From Pirellulaceae bacterium (GTDB taxonomy: Bacteria > Planctomycetota > Planctomycetia > Pirellulales > Pirellulaceae), in the NCBI GenBank assembly GCA_029243025.1, contig JAQWSU010000006.1, positions 1 through 64,000 of the forward strand: a stretch of DNA of 64,000 nt, in the 5' to 3' direction. Of the stretch, positions 4,820 through 16,755 are shown piece after piece. The notes below the pieces were generated by a model that made no database searches, was not told the origin of the DNA, and saw only the letters and a program-made list of their open reading frames with translations. Both the position numbers and the translations under genes were made by a program. Numbering within the stretch: position 1 is the first letter of the stretch; each line of letters opens with the position of its first letter.

Positions 4820-5073
4820 CGAGCACTCTTTCTGGACATTTTTTTACGGTCGGTTATGCCTCATCAGTCATTCGTTGTCTACCGGGTGATGGGCAGCTAA
4901 CTGCAATCGATTCTGGCCATCTTCCATCGCACGTTGAAAGAATCCTACCTAGATGGTTCTTGACAAGACTCGCTTTGCCCGTTGAATTATTGGCATTCAT
5001 GAACCTACCGCGATGTTCAGATCCTCGGTCATATTACCTGCATTGAACCTGCCTCTTGGAGACTCCACTCACG

Positions 5074-5601
5074 ATGCCTTCGCTAGATAAGCAACGCCGC
5101 AAAAAACTTCAAAAGAAAATCGACCGAGAATACGATTATCGCACCTTCTGTGACCGGGATGTCTATGTCAACGCAACGGGACCAAGCGGCCGTGGATTAT
5201 TTGCAAATCGCCAGTTTTTCCCTGGTGAACTGGTTGTCGAAGTCAAAGGCAAGCTGTTATTGCAAAAAGATTACGGAGCTTCGACTTATGTGATGGAGTT
5301 GAACCGAAAATGGTATCTTGAACCGGACATACCAGGTGCCTTCGCAAACCATTCTTGCAACCCGAATTGTGAGCTCATCGAATTGACAGATCATTCGATG
5401 GGCATTGTCTCGATTTGCAATATCGAGCCAAGAACCGAGATTTCCTATGACTATCAGTGGCCGGCACTGTCGTGGATTCCACGCTGCAATTGCGGAGCGC
5501 CAACCTGTCGCGGTTGGGTCGTTGCAGAAGACCAGGTCGCTAAAATGCGCCGGCTCTCCAAAAAGCGAAACGGAAGTAAAAACGGAAGTAAAAAGAAGTA
5601 G
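5074..5601 (+). CDS. SET-domain protein-lysine N-methyltransferase
   Basis: Compact SET protein of 175 aa. N-terminal GPSGRGLFA (37-44) is the SAM-binding entry motif, NHSCNPNCE at 92-100 is the hallmark knot motif, and EISYDYQW near 122-129 holds the catalytic tyrosine. A post-SET zinc motif follows (CNCGAPTCRG, C138/C140/C145; the fourth ligand would be C96 or nearby). The basic ends (RRKKLQKK at the N-terminus, SKKRNGSKNGSKKK at the C-terminus) suggest binding to nucleic acid or an acidic partner. ATG 5074 is preceded by GGAG about 12 bases upstream; an in-frame TTG at 5056 is an alternative. SET proteins resemble eukaryotic histone methyltransferases but are scattered through bacteria. 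The bacterial target here is unknown. No neighbour explains it. Confidence 0.93.
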   Translation: MPSLDKQRRKKLQKKIDREYDYRTFCDRDVYVNATGPSGRGLFANRQFFPGELVVEVKGKLLLQKDYGASTYVMELNRKWYLEPDIPGAFANHSCNPNCELIELTDHSMGIVSICNIEPRTEISYDYQWPALSWIPRCNCGAPTCRGWVVAEDQVAKMRRLSKKRNGSKNGSKKK

Positions 5602-6884: not shown

Positions 6885-8453
6885 ATGTCGACGACAAAAG
6901 TGCTACCGCCCACGGCTCGAGTGATTTTGGTACACGGCACCTTCGCTGCTCGCGATGGAAATGTTGGTGATAGCTGGTGGCAACATGGAAGTGCAACTTG
7001 GAATGGGCTGCAAAAACGTTTGCCGGCTGGTACGGATCTTGTCGAGCAGAGTCAAGTGTTCCACTGGTCGGGCGAGAACAGTGAACGTGCTCGGATCAAG
7101 GCCGGCCAAGATCTCCTCAAGCTATTTCGACAATTTGAAGAGGAAGGCATTGGCTACCACGTGATCGGTCACAGCCACGGCGGTTCCGTGATCTGGCACG
7201 CTTTACGTTCAGCTGAATTGCAAAACTACTGGTTGCCTCGGCTGCATAGTTGGGCAACTGTCGGTACGCCTTTCTTGCAACACCAGACTCGCAGCAGCTG
7301 GAGTTTGATCAATGCCATCAACATTGTCCTCGCTCTCGTGTTACTGAAGCCCGCCTATACAACCTTCAGACGACTCGTCCAATACTCCATTGCCGCAATC
7401 ACTGGCGGCGACATCGAGATGCTGACCGACGCGAGTAACGATTCCGCCATCGTACAAATTATTCGAGCCCCTAGCCTGAAGATCTTGGAGCTACTCGGAG
7501 TACCCGTCAACTTGACGGGAGACAAAATGCAAGTTGGCAGCTTCGATCCATCCAGCGGCGATTCGTTCGTAAATCACTTGTTCATGACAACCGAAGGCAT
7601 CACAATTCTGATCGTCGCGGTGATCTACATCTACGTATTGGTAAACCTTGCTTTCATGTTTCTCAATCCGGTGCTTGAATCACTGCGAATGCGATCTGAA
7701 AAACGACTCGAGCAAAGGTGTTCCCAGCGATTCGGCAAACGTTGGCTTGGCATTTGGTCTCCGGATGATGAAGCAATTAATGGACTGACCGCCACCCTTC
7801 GACTCTCCATGTCTTTTGTCTCCAGGATGGGGCCGCGAGAACGGGTTCTGTTCTCGGACGTCTTATTACTCATCTCGCAACCGTATTACTGGCTGATTTC
7901 GCCTATCTTCAATCGCTTCATTCGCCCCCTGTTGGATGATTTCATTAGGTCTTACATTGCGAAAACCGCGCAAGGAAACAATCGACCGGCGGCAGAAGTT
8001 GTCGGTGTTTCGCAGGTTCCTCTCTACAGATCTGCAGAGTCCACATTCCCCTCGATGCCCGCCTGGATGAACGCTCGAATCGTGGACTCTTCCAACCGTT
8101 ACACGGTGCATTTGGCACCCAAGCTGAGACGACTCCTGTCTTCCACCTGCATTCTGACAGGCCTGGACGCCTTTGGACACGAATTATCAGGGCGGGAACT
8201 GGTTCACACCTCCTATTTCGAGCATTCCGAGGTCCAAGATTTACTCGCCATGCACATTGCTTGGTCCATCGACAATTTTTCACACGCGGTCAAAATCAAC
8301 ACAACAGACGAGCGGCTGATCGCTTGGTACCAGACATTTCGCATCGCATCGGGCGGCCAGATACCTTCGGATTGGTTGGTCTCAACAGAACAAAACAAAT
8401 GTTCTGTCCCGATTCGACCTCGTCGTAGTATTCCACAACGCAGGGCTGCTTAG
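6885..8453 (+). CDS. alpha/beta hydrolase with internal membrane segments
   Basis: The N-terminal 110 residues are an alpha/beta-hydrolase start: VILVHGTFA (oxyanion-hole HG) at 13-21 and the nucleophile elbow GHSHGG at 95-100 with S97. After that the protein is unusual: hydrophobic stretches near 145-165 and 235-258 (ITILIVAVIYIYVLV) predict membrane anchoring in the middle of the protein. A long C-terminal part with YFEHSEVQDLLAMHI may supply the catalytic histidine. The start has a good ribosome site (AAGGA, nine bases before ATG). 522 aa is long for a simple hydrolase. It may be a lipase/esterase acting at the membrane; substrate unknown. Nearest genes are unrelated. Confidence 0.75.
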   Translation: MSTTKVLPPTARVILVHGTFAARDGNVGDSWWQHGSATWNGLQKRLPAGTDLVEQSQVFHWSGENSERARIKAGQDLLKLFRQFEEEGIGYHVIGHSHGGSVIWHALRSAELQNYWLPRLHSWATVGTPFLQHQTRSSWSLINAINIVLALVLLKPAYTTFRRLVQYSIAAITGGDIEMLTDASNDSAIVQIIRAPSLKILELLGVPVNLTGDKMQVGSFDPSSGDSFVNHLFMTTEGITILIVAVIYIYVLVNLAFMFLNPVLESLRMRSEKRLEQRCSQRFGKRWLGIWSPDDEAINGLTATLRLSMSFVSRMGPRERVLFSDVLLLISQPYYWLISPIFNRFIRPLLDDFIRSYIAKTAQGNNRPAAEVVGVSQVPLYRSAESTFPSMPAWMNARIVDSSNRYTVHLAPKLRRLLSSTCILTGLDAFGHELSGRELVHTSYFEHSEVQDLLAMHIAWSIDNFSHAVKINTTDERLIAWYQTFRIASGGQIPSDWLVSTEQNKCSVPIRPRRSIPQRRAA

Positions 8454-8714
8454 CAGCAAATCTGGAAATATTGATAACCTTTTTCTTGAGGCAGTACTCC
8501 CTTGAAATTGGCTTTCTAATTGAATCGAATTTTGGCGGGCGATTTGCCAAAGGAGAGCCACGCGTCCTATGTAGCGAAGCTGCCTGATACAGAACAGAGT
8601 CTTTTAAAGAGTACGTTGTCAGCAATCAGTGTATTACTAACTAGCAACAGCCTCAGTTATCATTGCGCGCAAACCATCATGGTGATGCGTTAGTAACCTC
8701 GCCGGAGTGAATTG

Positions 8715-10037
8715 ATGACAGACCAAAACGAATCACAGGGCCTCGGAACACGATGCTTACATGCTGGACAACAACCCGACCCAACGACAAATGCCCGGGC
8801 CGTACCTATTTACGCGTCCACATCCTACGTTTTTGACAATACGGATCATGCGGCAGATCTATTTGCACTCAAAGAATTTGGCAATATCTACTCACGGATC
8901 ATGAATCCCACAAACGACGTGCTCGAACAACGTTTGGTCGCACTCGACGGAGGCGCAGGGGCCTTAGGACTTGCTTCCGGACAGGCGGCAACCCACGCTG
9001 CGATTAATACCATTTGCCACGCGGGTCAAAACTTCATTTCCTCGAACAGTCTCTACGGCGGAACCTGGACACTGTTTACACAAACGTTTCCTAAACAGGG
9101 TATCGAAGTCCGCTTCTTCGACCCCAGTCACCCGGAACAGATCGAAAATCTTGTCGACGAAAACACTCGCTTGGTTTACATGGACAGCGTGGGTAATCCC
9201 AAAAATGACGTTCCGGATTACCGAAAAATCACGGAGCTTGCCCATCGGCATCGATTGCCCGTTTTTTGCGACAACACGACGATGACCCCTCTGCTGCTCC
9301 GCCCAATCGAACATGGTGTTGATGTGGTGATCTACTCAACCACCAAGTTTATTGGAGGTCATGGCACTCACATCGGAGGCGCTATTGTCGATAGCGGCAA
9401 TTTCCCTTGGGCCGACAATCCCGACAAGTGGCCTGAATTTTGTGCACCGTCAGAATCCTATCACGGCGTGGTATTTGTCGAAGCTCTGAAACCGATGGGA
9501 AACATCTCTTTCATCATTCACGCGCGCACACATTGGTTACGAGATACGGGGGCGTGCATGAGCCCCTTCGGTGCCTTCTTGTTTCTACAAGGTCTAGAAA
9601 CACTCCATTTGCGTATGCCCAGGCATTGCGAGAATGCGCTGAACGTCGCTCAATTCCTGGAACAACATGAGGCCGTTTCCTGGGTCAACTATCCCGGATT
9701 AGAAAGCCACAAGGATCATGTCAACGCCATGAATTATCTACCAGACGGTCAAGGCGCGATTCTCGGTTTCGGCGTCAAGGCAAACAACGCCAACGAGGCG
9801 AAAGAAATTGGCCGGCGCTTCATCGACCATTGCAAACTGTGCTCGCATCTTGCCAATATTGGTGATGCGAAAACGCTGGTCATCCATCCAGCTTCGACAA
9901 CCCACCAGCAATTGACCGCCGAGGAACAAGTAGAAACAGGCGTCACACCCGACTACATTCGTGTCTCAGTGGGACTGGAGGATAGCGAAGACATCATCGC
10001 TGACCTGAATCAAGCGTTGCGCGCAGCCACGGCCTAA
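8715..10037 (+). CDS. metY: O-acetylhomoserine aminocarboxypropyltransferase (sulfhydrylase)
   Basis: PLP enzyme that makes homocysteine from O-acetylhomoserine and sulfide, 440 aa. LHAGQQPDPTTNARAVPIYASTSY at the N-terminus is the MetY/Cys-Met signature. YSRIMNPTNDVLEQR, ASGQAATHAA and SSNSLYGGT are PLP-site blocks, and STTKFIGGHG carries the PLP-binding lysine (K211). The long insertion around WPEFCAPSESYHGVVF and the C-terminal IHPASTTHQQLT.EE..GV fit MetY rather than MetB. ATG 8715 follows GGAG by seven bases; TTG at 8712 is an alternative. The next gene encodes the acetyltransferase that makes its substrate, 44 bp downstream, so the two form a direct-sulfhydrylation operon. Confidence 0.96.
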   Translation: MTDQNESQGLGTRCLHAGQQPDPTTNARAVPIYASTSYVFDNTDHAADLFALKEFGNIYSRIMNPTNDVLEQRLVALDGGAGALGLASGQAATHAAINTICHAGQNFISSNSLYGGTWTLFTQTFPKQGIEVRFFDPSHPEQIENLVDENTRLVYMDSVGNPKNDVPDYRKITELAHRHRLPVFCDNTTMTPLLLRPIEHGVDVVIYSTTKFIGGHGTHIGGAIVDSGNFPWADNPDKWPEFCAPSESYHGVVFVEALKPMGNISFIIHARTHWLRDTGACMSPFGAFLFLQGLETLHLRMPRHCENALNVAQFLEQHEAVSWVNYPGLESHKDHVNAMNYLPDGQGAILGFGVKANNANEAKEIGRRFIDHCKLCSHLANIGDAKTLVIHPASTTHQQLTAEEQVETGVTPDYIRVSVGLEDSEDIIADLNQALRAATA

Positions 10038-10081: not shown

Positions 10082-11845
10082 ATGCCGGCAGAATTCAGCA
10101 GCTCAGATGACCAGCGAACCAACCAAGCTTTGACTCAGCTGCAATCGATTTGTTTTGACAAACCGATGCGGCTGAAGTTAGGGGGCCAGTTGCCTTCGGT
10201 TACCTGTGCCTATGAGACCTTTGGCCAGCTTAACTCCGATCGATCCAACGCGGTTCTCGTCTGCCATGCGATTTCCGGAGACTCACATGTCACGCGTCAT
10301 CACCCGGACGACCAGCCTGGCTGGTGGGAACAACTGGTTGGCCCCGGACGAGCGATCGATACGAATCGCTACTTCGTCATCTGCCCCAACGTGTTGGGAG
10401 GCTGTCGCGGCTCCACCGGTCCGGAATCAATCAACCCAGCAACTAACCGACCGTTTGGTCAGCAGTTTCCAATCATCACAATGGACGACATTGTCAATGT
10501 ACAGACTCGATTAGTGAACCAGCTGGGAATCGATCGACTCGTAGGTGTCGTGGGCGGATCCTTGGGAGGGCATCAGGCAATCACCTGGGCGACGCGTTAT
10601 CCGGAACGCATCGCAGCCTGCTGTGCTATCGCGACTTCCTCTCGACTATCTTCGCAGGCCTTAGCATTCGACGTGATCGGGCGAAATGCGATCAAGACGG
10701 ACCCGATGTTTCAGGACGGTCAATACTATGGCAATGCCAAACAGCCTGACATCGGACTGGCAATCGCCCGCATGCTGGGCCATATCACCTATCTATCGGC
10801 AGATGGAATGGACGAGAAATTCGACGTCGATCGACACAACCCCCGCGAACTTGACACGCTGTTTGAAAATCGTTTTTCAGTCGGCTCCTACCTTGCCTAC
10901 CAGGGTCACAAATTTGTAGAACGCTTTGATGCCAACAGCTACATCACACTGTCCATGGCCATGGATCTTGTCGATTTCGGCGACACGCTTGAACAACGGT
11001 GTGCCTCGTTGGCTTCATCAACTTGCCGTTGGTTGGTGGTTGGTTTTTCCAGTGACTGGCTCTTCCCACCCCAACAGTCCCGCCAAATCCTGCAAGCACT
11101 CAATACACTCCAAAAATCGGCCACCTATGCCATTGTGCCTTCGGATGCGGGACACGATGGTTTCTTGGTCGAATCCGACATCGATCGCTACTGCGATCTA
11201 GTTGCTGCAACGCTTGCCCCACCAACAAGGCTCACCAGCGATACGCCTCCCCAACGAGTAGATGACCAGCGGATTTTGGAACTCATTGAAGATGGGGAAT
11301 CCGTCCTAGACCTCGGCTGTGGCAGCGGAGATTTACTCTGCGCACTTCGAGCTCGAGGGCACCATCGCCTGACTGGGGTAGAAGTCGATTTGGATTCAGT
11401 CACCAAGGCGGCGCGTCAAGGTTTAATCGTTCAACACGCGGACCTTGATGAAGGCGTGCTCGATTTTCCTAACGACAGTTTTGATACGGTTATTTTATCA
11501 GCCACGTTGCAAGCCGTTGCCAACATCGAAGAGCTATTGGACGAGATGTTGCGGGTAGGCTCACGCTGTATTCTAAGCTTCGCAAATTTCGCCTTTCGAG
11601 AATTGCGAGACATGTACACACGAGAAGGCAAGTCTCCCAAAGCAGATGGTCAGTACCGATACGATTGGTACGACACACCAAACCGCCGGTTTCCTTCCAT
11701 CACCGACGTCCATGAGCTGCTACGAGCAAAGCGGGCAAAAGTCTTACGAGCGATCTATATGGACACCAAATCAGACGTACAGATATCGGACGACGACGAC
11801 TTTAATTACAAGGCAGACACAGCCATTCTGGTCATTCATCGCTAA
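10082..11845 (+). CDS. metX: homoserine O-acetyltransferase fused to MetW
   Basis: One 587-aa frame holds two enzymes. Residues 1-380 are MetX, an alpha/beta hydrolase-fold acyltransferase that acetylates homoserine: SGDSHV, NVLGGCRGSTGP, nucleophile elbow VGGSLGGH with S160, GFSSDWLFPP with D325, and DAGHDGFL with H358 complete the triad. From about 395, RILELIEDGESVLDLGCGSGDLL begins a MetW domain with a SAM-binding motif at 409-416. RRFPSITDVHELL near the end is typical of MetW. In many bacteria metX and metW are separate adjacent genes and MetW is needed for MetX activity, so the fusion fixes them at 1:1. It lies just after metY. Confidence is high for both halves. The acetyl rather than succinyl donor is inferred from family and context. 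Confidence 0.95.
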   Translation: MPAEFSSSDDQRTNQALTQLQSICFDKPMRLKLGGQLPSVTCAYETFGQLNSDRSNAVLVCHAISGDSHVTRHHPDDQPGWWEQLVGPGRAIDTNRYFVICPNVLGGCRGSTGPESINPATNRPFGQQFPIITMDDIVNVQTRLVNQLGIDRLVGVVGGSLGGHQAITWATRYPERIAACCAIATSSRLSSQALAFDVIGRNAIKTDPMFQDGQYYGNAKQPDIGLAIARMLGHITYLSADGMDEKFDVDRHNPRELDTLFENRFSVGSYLAYQGHKFVERFDANSYITLSMAMDLVDFGDTLEQRCASLASSTCRWLVVGFSSDWLFPPQQSRQILQALNTLQKSATYAIVPSDAGHDGFLVESDIDRYCDLVAATLAPPTRLTSDTPPQRVDDQRILELIEDGESVLDLGCGSGDLLCALRARGHHRLTGVEVDLDSVTKAARQGLIVQHADLDEGVLDFPNDSFDTVILSATLQAVANIEELLDEMLRVGSRCILSFANFAFRELRDMYTREGKSPKADGQYRYDWYDTPNRRFPSITDVHELLRAKRAKVLRAIYMDTKSDVQISDDDDFNYKADTAILVIHR

Positions 11846-12837: not shown

Positions 12838-13176
12838 TCACTTTACTCGGTAACCCAATTCCAGGAGTGATTTGCGAATACGATCCACATGATCTCCCTG
12901 AATTTCAAGCACGTCGTCTTTGACAGCGCCTCCCGCACCGCAAGTTTCTTTGAGTTTCGACAGCAGGGCCTTGAGATCAGTTCCATGGGATGACAAACCG
13001 TTGACCGTTGTCACCAGCTTACCGCGTTTTCTTTTTTCCATAAGTACGCGAGCGGTTTGTTCGGAGGGGTCGCGGTAAGTTTTAGGAGGCGGTGGACACT
13101 GACAGTCTGTTTCCAATTCGCCGCACCGCTCGCACTGAGGGGGCTGGTCGAATTGAGTGCCCTCAAATAGTCGCAT
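12838..13176 (-). CDS. SUI1/eIF1-family translation factor (YciH-like)
   Basis: Small factor of 112 aa. The C-terminal two thirds is a SUI1 domain: VTTVNGLSSHGTDLKALLSKLK, then CGAGGAVKDDVLEIQGDH and VDRIRKSLLELGYRVK. An N-terminal zinc-type knuckle CERCGELETDCQC lies at about residues 15-27. Bacterial YciH and archaeal/eukaryotic eIF1 share this fold; YciH influences start-codon fidelity in vitro but is not essential. ATG 13176 is preceded by GGAG at good spacing, so the frame that extends upstream into the quinoprotein gene is ignored. It sits 19 bp after that gene's stop and 26 bp before the esterase start, in a run of same-strand genes. Confidence 0.93.
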   Translation of the reverse strand: MRLFEGTQFDQPPQCERCGELETDCQCPPPPKTYRDPSEQTARVLMEKRKRGKLVTTVNGLSSHGTDLKALLSKLKETCGAGGAVKDDVLEIQGDHVDRIRKSLLELGYRVK

Positions 13177-13195
13177 CACTTTATTTACTCCAAAC

Positions 13196-14551
13196 TTACT
13201 GGGATGACCTCGACAAACAATAAAGGTGTTTGCTGCCTCGCAAAAACAACTGTTCACCGACCAAAGCAGGCGAAGCATCACAACCTTCGTTGAGTCGATT
13301 TGTCGCCAGCACTTTGAGCTCGTTAGCGGGCTCGATCACCACCGCAGCACCGTCTCTTCCCACCACATAGAGGCGACCCGCTGCGGCCACCGGTGAGGCA
13401 TACAATCGTCGCACTGCTGGCAACCGTGTCCGGCTCATCACTACCCGACCGGTGGAGGCGTCCACACAACTGAGAATCGGGTTATTTGACTGATTGAAAT
13501 AGAGCATCTCTCCCAGTAACAAGGGAGAAGGCACATAGGGCGTTCCTCGGTCTCGCGACCAAGCCACCTGATCGGAATCAGAAATATCACCTCGCGAAGC
13601 CAAAGGCAAGGCAAACAATGATGATCCTCCATAGCCGCTCATGCAGAATACGGTTTCTTGCGTAGCTACGGGCGAGGGAGTCACATTTCCGACTTGGCCT
13701 CCACACTCCCAAAGAATCGAACCGTCTGCTAGATCGTAGCTTCGAACACGATTGCTGGCATTGGTAATAACTTGTGTTTTATTCTGATGTTGCAGGATGA
13801 GCGGCGTCGCCCATGCACTTGGTTCATCCCGATCCGCTCGCCAAACGGTGGCACCATTACGGGCATCCAACGCCATTAGGTACGATTGGTCCTCCTGATC
13901 GCGAACGATCACAACCCGATCACCATGCACAACCGGCGAGGCCCCTTCACCGAAACTCTTTCGCATCTTGACTGGTCCCAAGTCACGTTGCCACAGTAAT
14001 CGACCGTCGAGGTCATAACAGTAGAAGCCGGCGGATCCGAACCAGATATAGAGGCGTTGACCGTCGGTGACCGGCGAAGCAGAGGCAAAATTATTGTCAC
14101 CGTGATGACCTTCGTGCGGCACCATTTCCTTCGCGATACGCCGCCACAGTTCCTTTCCACTCGTCCGATCGAGACAAATTACAGCGAATTGGAAACGTGT
14201 GTTCGGATAGGTGATGCCGAACGGACGAGCGGGCTGATCAGCAGGCTTTGGCAGATCCGGAATGACTTTTCCGGTATCGATCGAAGTCAATAAGAAAATC
14301 TTGTCCTGCCAAATGATCGGCGTGGAACTTCCTCGGCCATCCAGAGGAACCTTCCATTGAACATTCTGATCCTCGCTCCATCGGATCGGCGGATTCGCCA
14401 GTCTGCTGACACCATTCGCCTCAGGGCCACGCCACTGAGGCCAGAAGGCTGCTTTTTCTTTAACCCAATCAACCGCAAAAACCGACTGGGTCACGGCCAA
14501 TATTGCGACAACGATCAGAATTTGACGATCGAATTTGAACAACTGTGCCAT
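13196..14551 (-). CDS. secreted PQQ-like beta-propeller protein
   Basis: Secreted or periplasmic protein of 451 aa with a signal peptide (MAQLFKFDRQILIVVAILAVTQSVFAVD). WPQWRGPEANG is the conserved entry motif of planctomycete quinoprotein-type propellers. Repeated blades show the AxDxxTGxxxW pattern: CLDRTSGKELWRR, ALDARNGATVWRAD, SYDLADGSILWECG, CVDASTGRVVMSR. No cofactor ligands or cytochrome motif are seen, so it may be a structural or binding propeller rather than a dehydrogenase. The start has GAGGAG about eleven bases upstream of ATG 14551. It lies between the deoxyhypusine-synthase-like gene (78 bp) and the SUI1 gene (19 bp) and may share a transcript with both. Confidence 0.9.
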   Translation of the reverse strand: MAQLFKFDRQILIVVAILAVTQSVFAVDWVKEKAAFWPQWRGPEANGVSRLANPPIRWSEDQNVQWKVPLDGRGSSTPIIWQDKIFLLTSIDTGKVIPDLPKPADQPARPFGITYPNTRFQFAVICLDRTSGKELWRRIAKEMVPHEGHHGDNNFASASPVTDGQRLYIWFGSAGFYCYDLDGRLLWQRDLGPVKMRKSFGEGASPVVHGDRVVIVRDQEDQSYLMALDARNGATVWRADRDEPSAWATPLILQHQNKTQVITNASNRVRSYDLADGSILWECGGQVGNVTPSPVATQETVFCMSGYGGSSLFALPLASRGDISDSDQVAWSRDRGTPYVPSPLLLGEMLYFNQSNNPILSCVDASTGRVVMSRTRLPAVRRLYASPVAAAGRLYVVGRDGAAVVIEPANELKVLATNRLNEGCDASPALVGEQLFLRGSKHLYCLSRSSQ

Positions 14552-14629
14552 CGATCTGCTTACTCCTCTGAAAAATCCGCTACCACCATCAAACCCGAGA
14601 TTCAGGATGGCCAAACAAAGCTTAACGAG

Positions 14630-15700
14630 TCAGTCTCCCAATTCCTCGAAGATGGCCTTCATCAATAAAGGCCAGACGACTGTCGCATCGGCGTAGACTT
14701 CCGCATAGCGACCGCCCTGTTCGGTCGGAACGAACTTCCCCCAACTGACTCCTTCCGAATAAGTACAGCCCGAGAGGCCACCCCAGTGGACAGGTTCAGG
14801 GCAAATACGAACGCCATATTTAAAACGTCTGGCTGGTAAACAAGTTCCAAGTCGAGCGTTGGCCACATCGTAATAAGGCGACACTTGTTGTGCCCAATTC
14901 CGAGGAACGCCACCGCCAATGGTCAAAATCCCCAACTCTTCGCTTTGGGAAACAAAACGGGCATATTCCTGCAGATCCAAGAACGGGTTAAAACGAGGCA
15001 CAGCAAGGAACACATCATTCGCCGTGGTGGGAGTCTCACCCTGCAGCGCGCCCCGCATGGCCCATGTCGCAACATCCAATCCAATTTCACTGTCCGTGAA
15101 GGCTGGAATAAAAACGGGAACATCCTTTTCCGAAGCGCTTCGCAGGATACCGCGTCCTTCCTTTAATTTGGCAAGTCGCTCTCCGATCGCTCGACAAAGT
15201 CGTGCGGATGACCAGACGCCATCCGTCGGATTCGACTCACTCATTACGGACCGAACTAGCGTTTCAATATTGTTCAAATTGGCTTCCATCTCTAGCGTAT
15301 CGTAGATACGGTTGTAGCCCTGTTCAAACAACTTTTCGTCAGAATCACTCCTGTCATACCGATAATGCGTCAAGCCGATCGACTCTGTCAAACCGTGAGC
15401 AATCAGGGCACCTGTTGCAACAATCGCCTGGACCAAACCGCGGTCGATCAAATCACAAATGAGTTGCCCCTGCTTCGCCACAGTCATCGCACCCGAGAGT
15501 GTCAGGACAACCTGGCATTGCGATCGTTCGATCATCTCCAGCAAGATATCAAAGGCTTCACCAAGCTGTCGTCCGCCGAAAGCGGTCTTCCCCATGGCTC
15601 GCAATAGGTCGGTGAAATTGTGGACTTTCGACAGGTCAAGGCTCTCGAGAGGAACCAAGCCATCGTGACGGCCATCATGCAGTCGTCGCTCGGAGGACAT
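14630..15700 (-). CDS. deoxyhypusine synthase family protein
   Basis: 356 aa, full length for the family. TLSGAMTVA and VATGALIAHGL are NAD-site blocks, ANLNNIETLVRSV and VFIPAFTDSEIG follow, then LTIGGGVPRNW. EGVSWGKFVP near the C-terminus carries the catalytic lysine (K322) in the same setting as the EAVSWGK motif of eukaryotic enzymes. Classical members transfer the butylamine part of spermidine to a lysine of eIF5A. Bacteria lack eIF5A, and bacterial relatives, where tested, act as homospermidine synthases or are unassigned. ATG 15700 was preferred to an upstream TTG. No EF-P or polyamine gene lies nearby; the closest translation gene is the SUI1 factor 1.5 kb downstream on the same strand. 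Confidence 0.92.
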   Translation of the reverse strand: MSSERRLHDGRHDGLVPLESLDLSKVHNFTDLLRAMGKTAFGGRQLGEAFDILLEMIERSQCQVVLTLSGAMTVAKQGQLICDLIDRGLVQAIVATGALIAHGLTESIGLTHYRYDRSDSDEKLFEQGYNRIYDTLEMEANLNNIETLVRSVMSESNPTDGVWSSARLCRAIGERLAKLKEGRGILRSASEKDVPVFIPAFTDSEIGLDVATWAMRGALQGETPTTANDVFLAVPRFNPFLDLQEYARFVSQSEELGILTIGGGVPRNWAQQVSPYYDVANARLGTCLPARRFKYGVRICPEPVHWGGLSGCTYSEGVSWGKFVPTEQGGRYAEVYADATVVWPLLMKAIFEELGD

Positions 15701-15742
15701 CGGGTAGCTCAATCAAAATAAAGGATTTCGAGAATCTCGGCC

Positions 15743-16303
15743 CTAAGCTTCGCGTGCTTGCTCCAACAGCGCGATCCACGGCCCAACATAATGGCCGTTA
15801 TCGTGAAACGTTCGGCCGCTAACAAGGTTACCATCGATGACACAAGCTTCGTCGACAAACTTTCCTCCGCACACTTCCAGATCGAAGCGACACTTGGGAA
15901 CGGTAGCCATCCGCCGACCTTTCACACAATCTGCGTAGGCCGGTATTTCGACGCCGTGACAAACACTGGCGATCGGTTTGTTTGCGGCAAAGAAATGGCG
16001 CGTGATCTGTACGAGATCCTCATCATAGCGAATGTATTCCGGAGCTCGCCCTCCGGAGAAAAGGATTCCAGCATAATCCTCTGGCTGGACATCCTTGAAA
16101 GCAATGTCAGCATCGATCGTGTAGCCTTCCCATTCCTTGGTGATGGTCCAGCCCGATTTGACCTCGTGCAACACCATTTGATAGGTCCGTTGCTCCGGTG
16201 CGGCAACTACAGGCTGAAAGCCCGCCTCGATCAAACGGTAATAGGGATACATGGTATCAAGCGTTTCGGTCGCATCACCAACGACAATAAGAACTTGTTG
16301 CAT
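15743..16303 (-). CDS. DJ-1/PfpI-family protein
   Basis: Class I glutamine-amidotransferase-like fold, 186 aa. VLIVVGDATETLDT opens the first strand and carries the family acidic residue near E14. ILFSGGRAPEYIR and the nucleophile elbow IASVCHGVEI with C115 and H116 are diagnostic. GHYVGPWIALLEQ closes the domain. Members include PfpI proteases, glyoxalase III-type enzymes and chaperones; sequence alone does not separate these. ATG 16303 is used; the upstream TTG start lacks support. The stop lies 42 bp before the deoxyhypusine-synthase-like gene on the same strand. Confidence 0.92.
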   Translation of the reverse strand: MQQVLIVVGDATETLDTMYPYYRLIEAGFQPVVAAPEQRTYQMVLHEVKSGWTITKEWEGYTIDADIAFKDVQPEDYAGILFSGGRAPEYIRYDEDLVQITRHFFAANKPIASVCHGVEIPAYADCVKGRRMATVPKCRFDLEVCGGKFVDEACVIDGNLVSGRTFHDNGHYVGPWIALLEQAREA

Positions 16304-16755
16304 TGCTGAATTTCCACTCAAAAAGGGAACGCATGATTCGCCGTGAACCTGATACGGAAAGCGAACACCTAAGTTTTACTAGCCCGCACCGCCCTAATCA
16401 AACTCGCCTTGGACGACGCGTTTCAAGTCGCGAACAGGACGCACGTCGCAAAACGTACAGTCCACGATTAGCGAACAATGAATTCTTCCCAAAAAGCATG
16501 CTGGCATTCAGATTAGGCAACAGCCAACGCCTGCCAATCAGACCATCCACGGGTAGCCAGAACAGCGAAGCCCGCATCGCGAGCGGCGCGGCAGATCGCC
16601 CGCTGTGACGGACAATTCATCAATACAAGAGCATCGCTGCCGACCCAGATTCTTCGGCAAGCGATCCATTCGGTCTAGCAGCGAGCGTGGCTCGAGGTGC
16701 ACCCAGAACGAAACCCAGAACGAAACCCAGAACGAAACCTAGTGCGACAAAGTTT
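16304..16755. other. 452-bp gap without a recognised gene
   Basis: No frame here shows a known motif. A 34-codon minus-strand frame starting at 16620 (RAICRAARDAGFAV) looks protein-like in composition but stops quickly and could be a remnant. The right end holds a small 12-bp tandem repeat (16702-16737). The stretch probably also carries the promoter of the PfpI gene. Confidence 0.4.
16702..16737. repeat. 12-bp tandem repeat, three copies
   Basis: The unit cccagaacgaaa occurs three times in perfect head-to-tail order just downstream of the HdeD-like gene stop. Being a multiple of three it stays open in one minus frame (FVLG repeats), but I do not believe that frame is coding. Confidence 0.85.

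Follow-up and report, generated by a model that had tools for sequence, protein, structure and literature searches.

We propose that a gene of the deoxyhypusine synthase (DHS) family in the window, the whole 64,000-nucleotide stretch of Pirellulaceae DNA analysed here, probably encodes a SpeY-like homospermidine synthase that would make homospermidine, an ordinary polyamine in bacteria, from putrescine; we infer its substrates, its product and the steps between them. We favour this reading because relatives of the gene often lie beside genes for making polyamines, and not beside those of translation factors. The locus can be explained with no appeal to a hypusine-like modification of proteins or to a translation module. 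The proposal provides a working name and a context for a widespread bacterial subfamily, here called class A, that falls outside the NCBIfam models and is prone to being labelled deoxyhypusine synthase. The features of the window discussed below are as follows.

14630–15700, minus strand: DHS-family gene (class A), read as a probable SpeY-like homospermidine synthase
14735–14755, minus strand: EGVSWGK motif, residues 320–326 of the 360-residue open reading frame, with K326 aligned with the catalytic K329 of human DHS
14897–14917, minus strand: GGGVPRN, residues 266–272, with N272 at the position of H288 in human and archaeal DHS
15743–16321, minus strand: DJ-1/PfpI-family gene (PF01965, 113.8 bits), just upstream of the DHS-family gene and not thought to be part of the function
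13196–14614, minus strand: PQQ-like (BamB-like) beta-propeller (PF13360, 107.9 bits), a neighbour that is not conserved
12838–13176, minus strand: SUI1/YciH-like gene (PF01253, 68.2 bits, cut-off 25.5), from the likely start codon
11861–12841, minus strand: SASA-family carbohydrate esterase (PF03629, 105.8 bits), the last gene of the same-strand run and a neighbour only
5056–5601, plus strand: SET protein (PF00856, 52.7 bits)

A complete gene of the deoxyhypusine synthase family

With an alternative TTG start the open reading frame extends from 14630 to 15712 on the minus strand; the ATG at 15700 agrees with the relatives, whose N-termini start near the same point. The gene is complete, and its product belongs to the family by profile and by fold. 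Pfam DS (PF01916) matches at 255.5 bits (E 8e-76) over profile positions 1–287 of 288, and the AlphaFold2 model (pLDDT 87.3, pTM 0.88, with pLDDT below 50 in the loop at 305–311) finds human DHS as its best structural match (1dhs; Z 32.9, rmsd 2.6, 318 residues) and archaeal DHS (8put) at Z 31.7. The bacterial homospermidine synthase (HSS) of Blastochloris viridis is absent among the structure matches listed for the model, which has no bearing either way. Enzymes of this type would share their product with class A if the homospermidine reading is right, and are described as unrelated to SpeY (PMC9992855), with a reported structure that lacks such a catalytic lysine (PMC4725965).

The Pfam scores of the DS, SUI1, propeller and SET matches are far beyond chance. 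A first-pass annotation of this DNA had noted the DHS-like gene, propeller and SUI1 gene in a row on one strand, the catalytic lysine in EGVSWGK and the SET protein near 5.1 kb, all of which we confirm. It called the propeller a quinoprotein; the PQQ_2/BamB-like profile match stands, and quinone binding is only putative. Its description of DHS and SUI1 as eukaryote-like families is not supported, as both models match ordinary bacteria among the controls (Caulobacter, Thermus and Deinobacterium for DS; E. coli, Synechococcus and Bacteroides for SUI1). The two families are not rare among bacteria.

None of the relevant NCBIfam models is passed by the window's protein. Three models that bear the DHS name score best (231.1, 196.5 and 180.6 bits against cut-offs of 434, 364 and 304.25, respectively), followed by the model of the caldomycin synthase CdmS (NF002699, 174.1 bits, cut-off 500) and the homospermidine model for SpeY, a bacterial DHS homologue (NF001980, 162.1 bits, cut-off 450). 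This ranking speaks against the homospermidine reading, though the DHS-named models are themselves under cut-off.

The active site resembles that of SpeY

The human counterpart of EGVSWGK is EAVSWGK, ending at K329, and EG[VI]SWGK is found in all 80 class-A proteins that we collected from named genomes. Human DHS uses H288 as an invariant proton donor/acceptor and holds its substrate with D316, E323, D243 and N292, of which D243, N292 and D316 hold spermidine (PMC7226451). We compared these positions residue by residue with DHS in two rows, human and archaeal 8put; for H288 and N292 the alignment ran through 8put, to which the human sequence was aligned as well, and L024 was omitted from the table. 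Human H288, D316, E323, D243 and N292 correspond to N272, L313, E320, L212 and Q276 in the window's protein, while E323, W327 and K329 are kept (E320, W324 and K326).

D243 and D316 were considered as marks of a non-DHS enzyme and rejected, since archaeal DHS 8put is also without D243, N292 and D316. For this reason H288 alone sets DHS apart from the bacterial groups. At this position KHH stands in the human and 8put enzymes, whereas all 29 bacterial rows have either asparagine (classes A and B, described below, and the SpeY type) or aspartate (class C). The asparagine is present in 80/80 of the named class-A proteins.

At the four pocket positions (human D243, H288, N292 and D316) class A reads L/N/Q/L, the SpeY type M/N/Q/L and the CdmS type F-or-L/N/D/L, a pattern in which class A matches SpeY better than CdmS. 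The N292 position is glutamine in class A (7/7) as in the SpeY type, and aspartate in the CdmS type (8/8). This glutamine speaks for putrescine over agmatine as the substrate, in a comparison where the SpeY type is represented by just two rows.

Four subfamilies, one copy per genome

We searched 60 genomes, the window's own (G000) and relatives, and 47 of them have a DHS-family protein that exceeds the Pfam cut-off, with exactly one copy in each. A candidate second DHS in G000 (contig C33, 21 bits) was rejected; it is a GSU2086-family protein (L098:9297-10406) whose N-terminal part matches the DS family weakly. Another such weak match to the DS family occurs in G045.

The 47 genomes can be divided into four groups. 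Class A consists of the window's protein and those of six further genomes at 66–78% identity (7 among the 60), and class B of eight genomes, where both proteins tested pass the CdmS model. NF001980 is passed by the protein of two genomes. The largest group, class C, has about thirty genomes, and its three tested proteins pass no NCBIfam model. These assignments draw on NCBIfam runs with four class-A proteins (window, L004, L006 and L008, none of which passes any model), two of class B, two of the SpeY type and three of class C, with the remaining class-C genomes assigned by identity and score alone. Class-C loci (L019, L022, L025 and others, about 30/60 genomes) carry EKITWxK for EGVSWGK as well as aspartate at the H288 position. 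The genomes look as if the four subfamilies, two of them covered by the CdmS and homospermidine models, replace one another at one copy per genome, which we count in favour of the homospermidine reading. This pattern makes enzyme replacement in planctomycete polyamine synthesis directly testable.

Out of at least 551 loci in a scan of named genomes, 80 of class A were kept. By label they belong to MAGs and genomes of the Planctomycetota, Hydrogenedentota, Acidobacteriota, Nitrospirota, Myxococcota and others, with genera that include Thalassoglobus, Sorangium and Minicystis. Class A is widespread and reaches none of the NCBIfam cut-offs. Two MAGs depart from the one-copy rule, each with a pair of class-A DHS genes located on different contigs (L104 and L175; L128 and L137).

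Of the 80 named class-A loci, 12 went into a tree of 43 rows, as did 12 class-C rows trimmed to their last 345 residues; L024 (a 725-residue open reading frame) was omitted. The 19 class-A proteins form one clade with support of 100/100, separate from SpeY, in a tree whose bootstrap had not settled. Support for joining A with B is 85/34.

Relatives often lie beside polyamine genes

Of the 80 loci of class A from named genomes, 29 have a SpeD-family gene on the same strand no more than 0.75 kb upstream, and 19 have an agmatinase-family gene no more than 0.3 kb downstream. Five of the 29 SpeD-family neighbours were examined by Pfam and all are AdoMet_dc; two of the 19 agmatinase-family neighbours were examined and both pass TIGR01230. 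At least one of the two neighbours is present at 33 loci and both at 15, leaving 47/80 with neither, where some contigs are short (the flanks exceed 600 nt upstream in 78 loci and downstream in 71). Clusters of SpeD, SpeY and SpeB have been described for homospermidine synthesis, and the SpeD of such clusters can act as an arginine decarboxylase (PMC10407285). The same source places speY directly downstream of speDA in Gimesia maris, a layout that we find at the class-A locus L114, which bears the label Gimesia sp.; the G. maris SpeY is a possible member of class A. In G007, from the window's own family, the NF001980-type gene has two neighbours of this kind, AguA and a decarboxylase that belongs to the ornithine/arginine decarboxylase superfamily.

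Agmatine deiminase (AguA) is found in 45/47 DHS-positive genomes versus 4/13 DHS-negative ones (p 2.3e-6, kinship ignored), and in the 53 better genomes in 41/43 with DHS versus 2/10 without (p 2.1e-6, kinship likewise ignored). All seven class-A genomes have AguA, and an open reading frame of SpeA size was not found in three of the seven. The first-pass annotation had left the substrate as either a polyamine or a protein lysine; the polyamine neighbours, the co-occurrence with AguA and the asparagine in place of H288 favour the former.

In the genome of the window (completeness 95.95%) the DHS-family gene does not adjoin polyamine genes. It does encode SpeA over cut-off (768.6 against 624.1), and on contig C18 adjacent AguB- and AguA-like genes, with AguA and AguB under their NCBIfam cut-offs (282.9/381.8 and 294.9/410.25, respectively); no AguB match over cut-off was found in any of the 60 genomes. 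Judged by these matches, the SpeA and AguA/AguB-like genes are a predicted arginine-to-putrescine route. The genome also holds two SpeE-family and two SpeD-family genes, so spermidine may be present too. A PF16653 match reached no NCBIfam model at 1e-10, and a second triamine route is no more than a possibility. The absence of a polyamine neighbour from the window's gene and from 47 of the named loci, together with the possible spermidine, the AguA and AguB scores under cut-off and the three class-A genomes without a frame of SpeA size, counts against the homospermidine reading.

The two SpeD-family genes of this genome are fusions of SpeD (AdoMet decarboxylase) with SET, on contig C53 (L096:8542-9504 and 10613-11545). 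Similar fusions occur in G001, a genome of the same genus (contig C13, L099:6727-7671 and 8766-9743), and in both genomes they alternate with two spermidine-synthase genes. Of the other matches listed for 392 genomes in this phylum, none extended past residue 176 of 321. A broken PF02784 decarboxylase-family gene with internal stops lies at C45:444268-445001 of the window's genome.

Table 8 of PMC4334474 gives polyamine data for eight planctomycetes and reports sym-homospermidine in seven. In Pirellula staleyi this compound is reported to be the main polyamine (PMC3035237), and homospermidine is recorded for two of three Stieleria strains, with none in the third (PMC12254169). Searches of the open-access literature on planctomycete DHS and SpeY turned up no class-A protein whose enzyme activity had been assayed.

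Proposed reaction and alternatives

Under the homospermidine reading, the enzyme would be an NAD-dependent protein with a deoxyhypusine synthase fold that acts on small polyamines. Its putrescine would be supplied from arginine by SpeA, AguA and AguB, encoded elsewhere in the genome. A first putrescine would be oxidised by NAD, its aminobutyl group would be held as an imine on K326 and handed on to a second putrescine, and NADH would reduce the product to sym-homospermidine, steps that we have taken over from those given for human DHS (PMC7226451). Class A has the fold family and catalytic lysine of SpeY, the asparagine and glutamine at the H288 and N292 positions, and the polyamine genes beside its relatives, though not beside the window's gene. 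It differs from SpeY in the score against NF001980 and in its separate clade.

Class A could instead be a third type among the bacterial enzymes that couple polyamines with a DHS fold, and its own product would be neither that of SpeY nor that of CdmS; putrescine with agmatine, or spermidine with putrescine, are examples of what it might join. It would then belong to a set of four mutually replacing DHS subfamilies within one planctomycete order. We consider this unlikely.

We are more doubtful that class A works as CdmS does, coupling two agmatines to caldomycin (1,9-bis(guanidino)-5-aza-nonane) that is then trimmed to homospermidine. CdmS, whose substrate is given as agmatine, agrees with class A in fold and lysine and arrives at homospermidine via caldomycin (PMC10981699). 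It shares with class A the asparagine at the H288 position and the leucine at the D316 position, and the agmatinase-family neighbour of class A could use agmatine or the coupled product. However, class A falls far short of the NF002699 cut-off and has glutamine, as in the SpeY type, where the CdmS type has aspartate; the AguA/AguB-like genes of the window's genome, moreover, would consume agmatine as such.

Plant HSS, with spermidine and putrescine as its substrates (PMC10981699), provides a further model, in which the aminobutyl group of spermidine would be moved onto putrescine. The SpeE- and SpeD-family genes of the window's genome could make the spermidine, but SpeD-family genes are found in only three of the seven class-A genomes and the residues that hold spermidine in human DHS (D243, N292 and D316; PMC7226451) read L, Q and L. 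The latter argument is weak, as archaeal DHS 8put is without these residues too. We find this model very unlikely, and retain the homospermidine reading from two putrescines.

Is there a link with translation?

The EF-P gene of the window's genome sits between those of EpmB (425.6 bits, cut-off 369.3) and EpmA (363.4 bits, cut-off 286.9), which makes EF-P an unlikely substrate of the DHS-family protein. This EF-P carries a lysine in KPGKGNAF, which we take to be the modified one, and the other protein of the EF-P family resembles EfpL and has arginine at that tip. PF01287 detects eIF5A in 0/60 genomes, a result with a weak control, as the model matched two of four archaea. The efp model, which matches 14/14 controls including archaea, returns from the window's genome only EF-P and the EfpL-like protein, with no eIF5A.

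Five genes run along the same strand from 16321 to 11861: DJ-1/PfpI, DHS, propeller, SUI1 and esterase. The longer open reading frame of the SUI1/YciH-like gene extends to 13281. Its protein has aIF1 and YciH as PDB matches and shares the SUI1 domain with YciH/SUI1 proteins; it differs from them in not reaching the TIGR01158 cut-off (90.6 bits against 111.65), and its association with DHS is not conserved. Thirty of the 60 genomes have SUI1, 26/47 with DHS versus 4/13 without (p 0.21). Within class A it is present in three of seven genomes (the window's own, G001 and G008) and was not found in the other four. In G001 it shares a contig with DHS at a distance of about 60 kb and adjoins a homologue of the window's gene at 6885–8450; in G008 it is on a different contig from DHS.

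G001 keeps the order of the window's DJ-1 side to about 26 kb, including the DJ-1 gene next to DHS, and has neither propeller, SUI1 nor esterase at the corresponding place. In the other five class-A genomes, stretches of 9.6–20 kb around the gene have no common neighbour except one weak partial match, and lack the DJ-1 gene and an adjacent propeller. SUI1, DJ-1 and the esterase were found in none of the 80 named loci (flanks up to 4 kb), three of which have a weak propeller match. The window's gene row is therefore a local arrangement. We therefore reject a SUI1–DHS module, given the four class-A genomes without SUI1, the distance in G001 and the 80 named loci; the link with translation and the conservation of gene order raised by the first-pass annotation both fail here.

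We consider it highly improbable that the enzyme modifies EF-P, SUI1 or another protein by placing an aminobutyl group on one of its lysines: this reading has the DHS fold, the catalytic lysine, the DHS names of the best NCBIfam matches and a SUI1 gene two genes away in its favour, but class A differs from human and archaeal DHS in the loss of H288 and in scores under the DHS cut-offs, no eIF5A was found by PF01287 in the 60 genomes, with its weak control, or by the efp model in the window's genome, EpmA and EpmB adjoin EF-P, and SUI1 is absent from four of seven class-A genomes.

Beyond the esterase, a single open reading frame at 10082–11845 of the window fuses homoserine O-acetyltransferase MetX (residues 12–379) to MetW (residues 392–585), and an O-acetylhomoserine sulfhydrylase at 8712–10037 adjoins this fusion.
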